Source of the DNA: Odontocerum albicorne
Taxonomy: Eukaryota; Arthropoda; Insecta; Trichoptera; Odontoceridae
NCBI GenBank assembly: GCA_949825065.1
Contig: OX463844.1
Coordinates: 24,585,763-24,649,762 of the forward strand
DNA length: 64,000 bases
Direction of reading: 5' to 3'
The position numbers were made by a program, and so were the translations under genes. Shown piece by piece: positions 9,580-59,785 of the stretch. Every line of letters begins with the position of its first letter. The first letter of the stretch is position 1. Under the pieces are notes generated by a model that was not told the DNA's origin, did no database searches, and saw only the letters and a program-made list of their open reading frames with translations.

Positions 9580-9605
9580 GATCTTACACGATCAATCCAG
9601 ATTGC

Positions 9606-9801
9606 GATCAGCGGATCGCAAGCGTGATTTCAAAATATCTGGATATTTTGTGATCTGATGTATCAATCAGTCAATCCGCTTCTTACAAATAAATCTGGAT
9701 CGCGATCAGCGGATCGCAAGCGTGATTTCAAAATATCTGGATATTTTGTGATCTGATGTATCAATCCGCCAATCCGCTTCTTACAAATCAATCTGGATCG
9801 C
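9606..9801. repeat. Two tandem 98-bp units inside the Harbinger element
   Basis: Units begin at 9606 and 9704 with GATCAGCGGATCGCAAGCG and are nearly identical. They make the right subterminal region longer than the left and multiply GATC-type motifs that could be transposase binding sites (inference). Confidence 0.85.
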
Positions 9802-9856
9802 GGTCGTTGATTTTGATCGCAGATCGCGATCCAGATTGACCGTCTAAAGGGTGCCT

Positions 9857-13310: not shown

Positions 13311-13523
13311 TTATTTTATTAACTAAAAGTCATTTATTTAATCTATGAATGGTAAATCTGTTTCGCCAAAGTCACCCATTATTATTTTATTAACTAAAAG
13401 TCATTTATTTAATCTATGAATGGTAAATCTGTTTCGCCAAAGTCACCCATTATTATTTTATTAACTAAAAGTCATTTATTTAATCTATGAATGGTAAATC
13501 TGTTTCGCCAAAGTCACCCATTA
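13311..13523. repeat. Tandem repeat, 3 copies of 71 bp
   Basis: The marker AACTAAAAGTCATTTATTT occurs at 13321, 13392 and 13463, an exact 71-bp period with essentially identical units. A recent local amplification beside the GAAACCGG repeat. Confidence 0.92.
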
Positions 13524-14435
13524 TAATTTTTCACCGAGTAGATATAGCGATATCAATATGAAGAATGTTTAATTGGCCTGAATTTATTTTTCCCGCTTTG
13601 CAATACTTTTATTTTCACGTGACTAGTCCAAGCATACTCTGACCCACTATTTGCTATGATTCATTTCTGTAAACATATAATATTTGTAACACAAACGCGT
13701 GTTTAAAGAATAATATTTAATTCTTGCCATACGAATAAAAAACCTCAATAGAACTATGGGAAGTGTTTGGTGCTTGACACATCTCGTTATAAGAATGTTT
13801 GATTAATAGAATTCTGTTTCATTTTTGAAAACTTTCAATTAAGTTTATGAAATATTTCACCAACACTGCGTTCTCCGCATAAATCTAGAATTTATGAAAC
13901 CTGGAATTGTGGGACTAATTCAATTATCCTCTTAACGTTTTTTTTATTTAGTTAGTACTTCCATACAAATACATATAATGGATGTATTGCTTTAAATTAA
14001 TTTCTTACAATCAACCAGCTTTTGTTTCATAATCATTGCCAGAACCCATGACCGTGTCTTAAACTTAGTAAATAAAAACCATTTTTGAAAAAAAAAGCAA
14101 AAAATAAACAAAAGATAAATCTCAAAGTAAATAGGGATCAGGGTGGGAAATGTATGGGAGTTCAGGACGAGGAATTTTTTAAGATAAATTGTAAAGCTTT
14201 TTCTTAAATATTGATACACGGATTTTACCCAAAACGCCAAATGCTGTCTTAACTGTTTAATGGACGCGAGTAATATTATTATCACTTCTAGTTTGAAAAT
14301 TAAAAGCACTTGAAGTCTGGACAAAGGAATAACTAGAGAGAGAAAGAGAGACTAATTGACTTTTCGTAACATCGCTAATAACTGAATCATACTTACTTAC
14401 ATAATACGTTACGTCATACGGGCAAAATGTAAGTA
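13524..14435. other. No gene recognised
   Basis: AT-rich DNA. A 110-codon minus-strand ORF (13992-14324) has no known motif and looks like chance in low-complexity sequence. Confidence 0.55.
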
Positions 14436-17197: not shown

Positions 17198-17319
17198 CTT
17201 TAATCAACAACTATATCTTATATTATTGCATAACTCAATTATTATACATACTTGCTAACTTTAATCAACAACTATATCTTATATTATTGCATAACTCAAT
17301 TATTATACATACTTGCTAA
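17198..17319. repeat. Tandem duplication, 2 x 61 bp
   Basis: CTTTAATCAACAACTATATC starts at 17198 and again at 17259. The two units are almost identical. Confidence 0.9.
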
Positions 17320-17573
17320 CTAAAGATTTTCTCAATATAAAAACGAATACTTGTAAAGTCAAATTGTTTGCCAATTAAGACACAGCATAAAAAAAATAAA
17401 GTTTATGCTTCTCTAATTCTTAGCATCTCTACCTACACATTTATTTATTGAAAAAATATACGAAATTTACGCAACCTGTACAAATCATAGCAACATTTCC
17501 TACATAAAAGATAAAATATTATCAGTTAAAAAATTAGTACAATATTAAAAAAAACATCAAAGTAAATATAAAA

Positions 17574-51320: not shown

Positions 51321-52499
51321 TTTTAAAAAGCGTCCCAATTCGATTAGTGTCCATCTTGTAATAATTCTCGCACACACGCTGAGTCATGCATATATTGTTG
51401 CTTCTTAACGTTCAACGACGAACCGCATGTTACGTGCCTTCAATGGTCCTAAACCCAAAAAATTGATAACTGGAGCTGACGACAATATTGTCTCCCAGCT
51501 TTTCTATTCAATGTCCCGCTTAAAAAAACCGAATATGGTACCATACGAAAAATAAATGGCTCAGTGGAATGACCTTATTGGTCGAATGGTTAACGTGCTT
51601 GTTCTTTGTCATCGGGGCTTAGATTTATTTCATCAAATCTGCAGTATGACTTGACACGATTTCACAGAGTGATCTGACATCTAATCAGATCAACACGAGT
51701 TTTTTATTATGTCACATTAAATTATCTTTTCTCTCTTCCTTCATATGATACATTTAAGATTGGGTACTTCCTGGCATATGCTGATGCGGAAAATTACACA
51801 ATCTTATGACTACAGGCCCCTTCCTATTCTTATATAATTACACAATCTTATGACTACAGGCCCCTTCCTATTCTTATATAATTTTTAATCTTTAATAGTA
51901 ACGAGTTTGATTCCCGATTAAGAGCGCCCTTGAGGAGAGTCTGATTATTAAATGGTGCCATATAAATAGTCCGTATATTATTATTGTCAAAATTCAATGA
52001 CGCTAAGATAGCGATACTCTCATTGAACATACGAGTATGATACATCTGCGATCTTGCTTCATAGACGACTCATGCATATGAAATAAAAGTAAAATATAAA
52101 TGCAATAAATTATGGATTCTTATTAGAAATGCTAAATATTATTCATAAATATCAGAATACAGTATTTATTCATTCATATAATAAGCAAAAAGTATCTACT
52201 ATTTACTTGAATTTATTATACACGAGTATGTATGACTGCTGACCATGACAGCTTTTTTTATAGTTTTTTTTACTCAGAATCAGCAAACGATCATGACAAA
52301 GATTATTTGAATAAAAAGGTTTGAGTCTCTGCAATTTATAATCTTTGTATAACTTATTTCTTTGTTTCAATGTAAATTGTATCAAACAAATGTCAAAATT
52401 ACACTTTTTACAGCAAACAAATAAATGAAAAGGAAACTGAACTGGAAGATTTTTTAATTTTCACATTTCTTGGTTTTAGCATTTAAAAAATATTCATCC
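51321..52499. other. No gene recognised
   Basis: AT-rich DNA with one 44-bp tandem duplication (51792-51879). Confidence 0.5.
51792..51879. repeat. Tandem duplication, 2 x 44 bp
   Basis: AATTACACAATCTTATGACT begins at 51792 and 51836. The units are identical over their length. Confidence 0.9.
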
Positions 52500-53299: not shown

Positions 53300-55340
53300 C
53301 GTCACGTTCTTTCGAGAAATAGTGAAGAGGAGGTGATTCCGTATTTCCGATATGTTAAAAATCTGGGAATCCTTGTCGATGAAGTTTTGAGTTGACGCAA
53401 TCATATCCCCGAGTTAAGCCCCAAAATCTTCGCAGGTCTCCATTCTCTCAATAGATTGCAAATTCTTCCCTATCTAAAGCAGAATTTTACTAGTTTGCAT
53501 TTTGCCCTTAATTGACTACGGGGAGGTAGTTTTATCGATACAAATGAGGAGTTGTAGGATACGCTGAAAAGGCTCGAAAATGTTTTTATTTGTTGTTTTT
53601 ATCTTAAATAATACGGTAACATGTCTGAATATAGTACTAAACTTCAACGCCTTAAAATAATTTAGCGAAGTTATATCCAGCTTCTATCAACCCTCTTTGG
53701 AGTGTTGAACAATATAATCTGTCCTCATGTTTTTATCTTAAATAATACGGTAACATGTCTGAATATAGTACTAAACTTCAACGCCTTAAAATAATTTAGC
53801 GAAGTTATATCCAGCTTCTATCAACCCTCTTTGGAGTGTTGAACAATATAATCTGTCCTCATATTTTTATCTTAAATAATACGGTAACATGTCTGAATAT
53901 AGTACTAAACTTCAACGCCTTAAAATAATTTAGCGAAGTTATATCCAGCTTCTATCAACCCTCTTTGGAGTGTTGAACAATATAATCTGTCCTCATATTT
54001 TTATCTTAAATAATACGGTAACATGTCTGAATATAGTACTAAACTTCAACGCCTTAAAATAATTTTGCGAAGTTATATCCAGCTTCTATCAACCCTCTTT
54101 GGAGTGTTGAACAATATAATCTGTCCTCATATTTTTATCTTAAATAATACGGTAACATGTCTGAATATAGTACTAAACTTCAACGCCTTAAAATAATTTA
54201 GCGAAGTTATATCCAGCTTCTATCAACCCTCTTTGGAGTGTTGAACAATATAATCTGTCCCTTTTTTTTATCTTAAATAATACGGTAACATGTCTGAATA
54301 TAGTACTAAACTTCAACGCCTTAAAATAATTTAGCGAAGTTATATCCAGCTTCTATCAACCCTCTTTGGAGTGTTGAACAATATAATCTGTCCTCATGTT
54401 TTTATCTTAAATAATACGGTAACATGTCTGAATATAGTACTAAACTTCAACGCCTTAAAATAATTTAGCGAAGTTATATCCAGCTTCTATCAACCCTCTT
54501 TGGAGTGTTGAACAATATAATCTGTCCTCATGTTTTTATCTTAAATAATACGGTAACATGTCTGAATATAGTACTAAACTTCAACGCCTTAAAATAATTT
54601 AGCGAAGTTATATCCAGCTTCTATCAACCCTCTTTGGAGTGTTGAACAATATAATCTGTCCTCATGTTTTTATCTTAAATAATACGGTAACATGTCTGAA
54701 TATAGTACTAAACTTCAACGCCTTAAAATAATTTAGCGAAGTTATATCCAGCTTCTATCAACCCTCTTTGGAGTGTTGAACAATATAATCTGTCCTCATA
54801 TTTTTATCTTAAATAATACGGTAACATGTCTGAATATAGTACTAAACTTCAACGCCTTAAAATAATTTAGCGAAGTTATATCCAGCTTCTATCAACCCTC
54901 TTTGGAGTGTTGAACAATATAATCTGTCCTCATGTTTTTATCTTAAATAATACGGTAACATGTCTGAATATAGTACTAAACTTCAACGCCTTAAAATAAT
55001 TTAGCGAAGTTATATCCAGCTTCTATCAACCCTCTTTGGAGTGTTGAACAATATAATCTGTCCTCATATTTTTATCTTAAATAATACGGTAACATGTCTG
55101 AATATAGTACTAAACTTCAACGCCTTAAAATAATTTAGCGAAGTTATATCCAGCTTCTATCAACCCTCTTTGGAGTGTTGAACAATATAATCTGTCCTCA
55201 TATTTTTTTTCTGAGCATGAATTGTTCTTCTGATTCTTTGAATACAAACTCATATTCTGATCCTTTGAATATGTCATCTTTTGCGGTTCACTCGGCTCGA
55301 CTTTGGAAGGTTCTCCTAGGCTGGGAGACAGCCTTCGGGC
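53300..55340 (+). pseudogene. LINE family A RT C-terminus interrupted by a tandem array
   Basis: Forward frames read VKNLGILVDEVLS, KIFAGLHSLNRLQILP, ERLENV and NMSEYSTKLQRLKI. After the array they continue ICPHIFFLSMNCSSDS and FAVHSARLWKVLL. Order and spacing match the LINE at 58895-59785 (FSLKVLPTFLP, KLQRLQNVYLRF, HITSYQKALNWLNV, VHAVRLWNQL). The segment from roughly 'FYLK' to 'NNIICPH' has been multiplied in place (53601-55207), so one RT fragment flanks and includes the array. Many stops. Confidence 0.8.
53601..55207 (+). repeat. Tandem array: 12 copies of a 134-bp LINE-derived unit
   Basis: The marker ATCTTAAATAATACGG occurs at 53601, 53735, 53869, 54003, 54137, 54270, 54404, 54538, 54672, 54806, 54940 and 55074. 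The spacing is 134 bp every time except one 133. Copies are almost identical; variants include CATG/CATA at the junctions, one CATA to C change near 54260, and one TTTAGCG to TTTTGCG near 54064. The unit is a piece of LINE RT coding sequence (44.7 codons, so the frame is not kept). Junctions lie in T-runs. Confidence 0.97.
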
Positions 55341-58894: not shown

Positions 58895-59785
58895 TATTTA
58901 ACACTTTTATTGCAAATACAATCTGGCGGGTTTATTGCCAGGCGGCAATCTCTTCCAACCAACCAGACAAAAGTAAATGAAGCAAGTTACGTGGTCGCAT
59001 AAATCATTCAAATGACTATCCATCCCCACGAAATCCATAAACATATACGTGAGCACATGCCCACGAACCCCACAATGACGGACAGTCACCCGAACATTAT
59101 TTTTCATATAAAGTGAGATATCATCAATCAAAAGGAAAGGAGGGATAGTGGAGAGGAAAGGAAAATAAAAATCAGGAATGAAACACGTTATTTTACTGAC
59201 TATAAATTAAGAGGTTTTCAGTCGCTTCTTAAAGCATGCCAAGGACGGAGCGAGTCTTATATTGGTTTGTAACTGATTCCAGAGTCTCACTGCATGGACA
59301 GTAAAGGTCGACGTAAAGAAAGAGGAGCGGTGAACTGGAAAGGCCAATAAACAATCTCTGTTTGAGCGTAGCGCTAATCCATGATTGGAAAGACGCTGAA
59401 AATTCTCGACGAGATAAGAGGGGGTGGCGGGACAGTTAAGGATATTATGCAATAGAGACAGTATGTAAATTTGGCGTCTATTTCTAACATTCAGCCAGTT
59501 CAATGCCTTCTGGTATGAAGTTATATGATCGTACTTACGTAGGTTGAAAATGAATCTTAGGTACACATTTTGAAGACGCTGTAATTTGTCCAGCTGTTCC
59601 TCTGTAACATCCAAGTAACATACGTCCGCATAGTTCAGAATCGGAAAGAGCAGAGATTGTACTAGTAAAATTTTGGTTTTCATTGGAAGGAATGTTGGCA
59701 ACACTTTAAGGCTGAAGAAGATCCTTCGGCTTACCTCATTTATTTGATCTCGCCATGATAGTGTTATCTATTAGCACTCCTATAT
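58895..59785 (-). pseudogene. LINE family A: RT C-terminus and 3' UTR
   Basis: The minus strand starts near GVLIDNT (~59780), shifts frame to LSWRDQINEVSRRIFF, then runs open through PMKTKILLVQSLLFPILNYAD, EEQLDKLQRLQNVYLRFIF, SYQKALNWLNVRNRRQIYIL, YLVENFQRLSNHGLALRSN, FTVHAVRLWNQL and SLACFKKRLKTS to a stop at 59207. This is the C-terminal third of a CR1/Jockey-like RT. About 290 bases of 3' UTR follow and end with a block shared with the SINEs (58915-58990). Copies of the coding part occur at 19555-19800 and 53300-55340. 5'-truncated. Confidence 0.82.
58915..58990 (-). repeat. LINE 3' tail shared with the SINE family
   Basis: Minus strand: CTGGTTGGTTGGAAGAGATT, then TTGCCGCCTGGCAATAA, CCCGCCAGATTGTA and AAAAGTGTTAAATAAAT. 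The SINE at 62598 has the same blocks. There is no tRNA-like head in the preceding 200 bases, so it is probably the LINE's own end; a 5'-truncated SINE is the alternative. Confidence 0.7.

Follow-up and report, generated by a model that had tools for sequence, protein, structure and literature searches.

The tandem array at positions 53595 to 55201 (forward strand) of the 64,000-nucleotide window analyzed here (C9:24585763-24649762, a stretch rich in transposon pieces) is very probably a single-locus, transposon-derived minisatellite that formed in an old, dead copy of a LINE; we put the probability of this reading at about 0.88. The array is most likely one product of a genome-wide tendency towards short tandem arrays.

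Structure of the Array

TRF reported the array at 53596-55207 with a period of 134, 12.0 copies, 99% matches and a score of 3161, and together with an alignment of the units this confirmed the 12 near-identical tandem 134-bp units described in an earlier note on this DNA. The 12 unit starts run from 53595 and 53729 to 55068, and 10 of the 11 spacings between them measure 134 bp, the remaining one, between units 5 and 6, being 133 bp; overall, eleven units are 134 bp long and one is 133 bp. When the period was extended exactly, the array spanned 53594-55207; the six further in-period bases at 55202-55207 (ATTTTT, forward strand) are the remnant of a 13th unit, or else they represent microhomology with the right flank. 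The array thus consists of head-to-tail repeats of a unit longer than 20 bp at one locus, which is the form of a minisatellite. Outside the junctions, the sole difference among the 12 units is one A-to-T substitution in unit 4, and the mean pairwise difference between units over unit bases 2-129 is 0.13%.

The 11 internal junctions fall into five of CCTCATATTTTT (A type), five of CCTCATGTTTTT (G type) and a single GTCCCTTTTTTTT, which sits between units 5 and 6. This variant junction (54259-54272, forward strand; CCC T8 ATC) is one base shorter, and more than one simple change separates it from the other two types. The earlier description of regular units with CATG and CATA junction variants therefore stands for the array and its low divergence, but has to be amended for the 133-bp spacing and the third junction variant. 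The A and G types show no local clustering along the array (5 switches; shuffled mean 5.0), and because of this the growth path of the array is unreadable from their pattern. Both the copy number and the age of the array are those of one assembly. When 200 kb of this genome was resampled with a first-order Markov model (n = 1), 0 arrays of period at least 25 resulted, so the array is not a chance product. No sign of a function was found for the array. The window as a whole gave no Rfam match at the gathering score.

LINE Identity of the Unit and Its Flanks

LINE sequence on both sides of the array, as previously proposed, was seen in the DNA (blastn and alignment) as well as in protein (tblastn). 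The left flank (53333-53594, forward strand) is decayed LINE sequence, collinear with unit 1, from the protein region just past the RT core, and blastn matches to relatives elsewhere in the genome extend leftward to 53333. The right flank (55208-55322, forward strand) continues the same LINE (SSFAVHSARLW), with a gap of ~20 bp with respect to the relatives. By tblastn with proteins of the family that resembles a LINE piece at 59207-59704 of the window, and with E-values that refer to a small search space set by us and carry no composition correction, P0007 aligns over the left flank and unit 1 (53336-53725, 35%, E 5.9e-14), P0004 aligns to 53336-53707 (E 1.3e-6), and P0003 aligns to unit 12 and the right flank (55070-55315, E 1.1e-5). 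The piece at 59207-59704 (reverse strand), which is related 3' coding sequence of a LINE, lacks a TRF array and was used for comparison only, likewise aligns to unit 12 and the right flank (E 3.1e-4). Homologous to one TE copy and flanked by it in register, the unit is that of a TE-derived minisatellite.

P0004 starts with MYADDLQLY, and its match to RVT_1 lies at the end of that domain (E 3.4e-4; 20.8 bits, below the Pfam cut-off of 29.6), which places the array piece in the region after the RT core. The same scan of seven homologues gave weak matches for P0007 (E 0.09) and P0008 (E 0.022), and four were without a match. In our reading, the relative L026 carries RT-like sequence upstream in the same orientation. 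We take the LINE to belong to a CR1/L2-like clade. The 12 proteins resembling the piece at 59207-59704 include ones from Colias croceus and Spodoptera litura. Eight window ORFs were scanned: two match RVT_1, four match transposase families (DDE_Tnp_1_7, DDE_1, and Transposase_1 twice), and two, including 59207-59704, match no family. Selection on coding, which had already been doubted from the unit length, is rejected, given that 134 cannot be divided by 3 and that stops interrupt the LINE frame in the array copy.

Relatives of the Unit and Amplification in Place

A search for the unit in its own genome (a 1.287-Gb assembly, with 40 of 271 candidates scored) listed 45 matches, 6 in the array itself and 39 dispersed at 70-82% identity; no second locus above 82% identity was found among the candidates scored. 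We examined 20 of the 39 relatives, leaving the entries for the array itself (L001-L006) out of the count. The segment is present once in 19 of these 20. The exception, L009, carries a duplication of its own (130 bp, 2.4 copies) that overlaps the segment and has other breakpoints. L009 may owe its search rank to that duplication.

Past the unit, significant blastn matches continue leftward in 12 of the 20 relatives and rightward in 9; five relatives have them on both sides and four on neither, with the AT-repeat matches of L022 left out. The matches follow the order of the window flanks from ~260 bp left to ~120 bp right of the array. The four unit-only relatives (L017, L022, L023, L025) count against the preferred reading. 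With the segment present once in 19 relatives and separately duplicated in L009, the sequence comparison nonetheless shows that the unit is LINE coding sequence amplified in place, as the earlier note had it. Insertion of a pre-existing satellite is rejected, since flanks and unit form one LINE in register.

Breakpoints and Proposed Origin

The dispersed LINE copies show the pre-amplification state, so the breakpoints of the array can be compared with them. At the right edge we aligned 19 relatives, excluding L009 as itself duplicated. By our reading of this alignment, the bases after the unit end are GTATC in 12 of the 19 and a close variant in 6, and L023 is broken there; L009 also reads GTATC. 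In many relatives the GTATC-like bases are followed by a stretch like AATTTTCTTTCTGAGCATG. Past the unit end L016 reads CCTCAGTATCTGGGTAAAAATTCAATTTTCTTTCTGAGCATG, where the window reads CCTCATATTTTTTTTCTGAGCATG, and ~20 bp of LINE (18 with respect to L016) is absent exactly at the right array edge. That edge, CCTCATATTTTTTTTC, repeats the A-type junction, so that CCTCATATTTTT is present at five internal junctions and once more at the edge. Two relatives, L011 and L020, have likewise lost sequence close to this site, in other ways. In L016, ~50 bp of LINE past the unit end (the part with SSFAVHSARL) occurs twice in succession, a repeat absent from the listed TRF arrays.

The left GTTTTTATC and the right ATTTTTTTTC share T5, and the earlier note had placed both breakpoints in T-runs and proposed a start by microhomology. 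The left T5 is still a candidate, whereas the right edge weakens the proposal: 18 of 19 relatives read GTATC-like bases with no T-run, which means that the T8 now adjoining the array came to lie beside it through the loss of ~20 bp of LINE. Judging from the alignment, the right-hand breakpoint is not in its original state.

We propose that a 134-bp stretch of the dead LINE copy would first have been duplicated in tandem, probably by replication slippage or by end joining that needed little or no homology, close to the T5 run. From this pair, 12 units may then have arisen in place through unequal exchange, slippage or another copy-number process of that kind, in an expansion that is recent relative to the age of the LINE. 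The right edge could reflect a deletion that brought a T-run in a truncated unit up against one in the LINE.

Age of the Array

One substitution in 12 × 128 bp corresponds to 0.00065 per bp (95% 0.00002 to 0.0036) under a star tree. In the unit core the LINE copies differ from one another by about 21%, and the window unit differs from them by 25%, in a sample of 19 relatives chosen for likeness to the unit. Set against this 21%, the 0.13% between units makes the array far younger than the LINE insertion, and the proposed recent origin is upheld. A mutation rate of about 3e-9 per generation would put the age of the array, very roughly, at the order of 1e5 generations; homogenisation would make it appear younger.

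Frequency of Tandem Arrays in the Genome and in the LINE

Short tandem arrays are routine in this genome. In random DNA, sampled as 20 stretches of 10 kb (200 kb in all) on 15 contigs of known length, TRF found 27 arrays of period at least 25, 10 of them with at least 3 copies and all together covering 2.4% of bases. The 20 relative loci (62 kb) gave 17 such arrays, 9 with at least 3 copies, and the window gave 7, 3 with at least 3 copies. A joint TRF scan of all 326 kb counted 49 arrays rather than 51, since loci were oriented. The 134-bp array, which was selected for length, is the longest of the 49, and this counts against regarding it as an ordinary product. Next in length is the array of L017, which runs off the end of the examined sequence; the three longest are all LINE-internal. 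Four further arrays in the window (9600-9802, 13311-13530, 17198-17321 and 51792-51883, with units of 98, 71, 61 and 44 bp) have 2-3 copies, 96-100% matches and units unlike the 134-bp unit. At L037:1943-2464 there is a 173-bp × 3 array (98%) whose unit matches the random loci L033 and L035 at 90-99%; it may represent a dispersed repeat family with internal tandem structure.

Five other copies of the same LINE carry LINE-internal arrays of their own. The array of L017 has a 66-bp unit in at least 21.7 copies (99%; reverse strand; L017:1656-3087, within C17:34942084-34945170), and the other four lie in the 3' end and UTR of the LINE: L011 (73 bp × 13.1), L007 (32 bp × 9), L024 (57 bp × 3.2) and L009 (the 130-bp duplication above). 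The units of all five have matches in other relatives, situated about equally far from the unit end; for L007 the evidence is weak (a single 30-base match). The L017 array has a higher-order pattern, with one variant in units 2, 6, 10, 14 and 18 of 21; its unit length is divisible by 3, and the reading frame stays open for 485 codons, with no evidence of a gene. L009 also has a second array (45/90 bp) 262-488 bp past the unit end, the unit of which matches nothing else examined.

Counting this second L009 array with the five LINE-internal ones, 6 arrays of period at least 25 touch the zone from -500 to +450 of the unit end in the relatives, about 19 kb in total, where random DNA has 27 in 200 kb (p 0.22); when at least 3 copies are required, the counts are 4 and 10 (p 0.31). 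The 19 kb is our figure (20 × 950), and the arrays of L017, L011, L009 and L007 extend beyond the zone. For the 20 relative loci taken whole, the count is 17 arrays in 62 kb, compared with the 27 in 200 kb of random DNA (p 0.06). An excess of arrays over random DNA was thus not shown for the 20 copies of this LINE (p 0.22 and 0.31), and neither was a special array hotspot within it.

Alternative Explanations

That 6 of 21 copies, the window included, have amplified a different segment or used other breakpoints, with units of 32, 57, 66, 73, 130 and 134 bp, could mean that the 3' part of the LINE repeatedly and independently spawns minisatellites, the element or its chromatin serving as a minisatellite nursery; we consider this unlikely. 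We give more, though still less than even, credence to a variant of the preferred origin in which the T-runs seeded the array: ~20 bp would have been lost first, setting T8 beside CCTCAT, after which the left T5 and the right T8 mispaired, the A and G junction types being the two parental bases. The T5 shared by the two sides fits this order of events, as do the flank bases G (left) and A (right), each of which recurs at five internal junctions; in L021 a T8 run has in fact arisen at that LINE site; and the model of Haber and Louis, as outlined in the parts of PMC6947457 and PMC3389668 consulted here, requires short direct repeats flanking the unit, which would be 5-10 bp long at either end of the ancestral single unit. 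By our count, however, it needs a prior deletion, an insertion and a substitution, whereas fewer steps suffice if a duplication with a G junction was followed by one G-to-A change and then by the deletion, which in joining TATTTTT to TTTCTGAGC gives T8 exactly.

Two other explanations would change the standing of the locus itself, and we regard both as very improbable. Near-identity of the units is what an assembler multiplying one or a few units would produce, but the three junction variants and the one substitution are unevenly spread, LINE flanks lie on both sides, and L017, another array here, has real internal structure. A long read would span 1.6 kb, and the array is only that long. The birth of a new satellite family, spreading or already spread, had been raised in the earlier note, and a young, homogeneous array of 12 copies, the longest of 49, would suit its early stage; satellites derived from LINE ORF2 and CR1 are among those listed in the portion of PMC9659126 used here. 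A satellite family, however, has long arrays and/or many loci with the monomer, and what we found is one locus above 82% identity, the same array not turning up at many unrelated loci (40 of 271 candidates scored). Moreover, other young arrays are common here, so most are presumably transient, and nothing was found that disperses the array; the suggestion is therefore possible but unsupported. A single-locus minisatellite derived from a dead LINE copy is the reading that we retain.

Comparison With Known Systems

By itself the array matters little, and its use is as an unambiguous example of amplification in place. If it is true that this LINE seeds arrays more often than other DNA does, the initiation of minisatellites becomes testable. 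A literature query on names of LINE-derived satellites gave only unrelated papers among the matches listed.

The mouse locus Ms6-hm is a short-unit hypervariable locus. Like the array here, it is a minisatellite born inside a retroelement, in that case a MaLR, according to the passages of PMC9659126 and PMC6947457 that treat it. Minisatellites derived from TEs, like satellites with an origin in LINE ORF2, are already documented, and the array is another instance of the former. In the human genome, 7,276 of 31,472 minisatellites (23%) are TE-derived, and 5,747 of 5,932 clusters of these are confined to one locus, as given in the survey of Ahmed and Liang (2012; PMC3389668), in which the postulated mechanisms account for only 6% of the TE-derived cases. 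These human loci and the array share the tandem amplification of an internal TE piece and its local expansion; host and LINE family differ, and the AT-rich unit here would probably be excluded by the minimum GC of 40% set in that survey (PMC3389668).

Satellites made from LINE-1 ORF2 or CR1 sequence include PROsat of Phodopus, Pvc 20 of Phoca and HinfI/SCR1 of chicken, as listed in the relevant section of PMC9659126 (PROsat also in that of PMC6947457). Their unit, like ours, is at least partly LINE coding sequence, but they are satellite families, whereas here there is one array of 12 units. The Ogre-derived satellites of Lathyrus, as far as the excerpted account goes (PMC7004042), offer a likeness in their short arrays inside retrotransposons that act as satellite seeds; in Ogre these occupy the element's 3' UTR and are present in its many copies, whereas the array described here lies in one dead copy.
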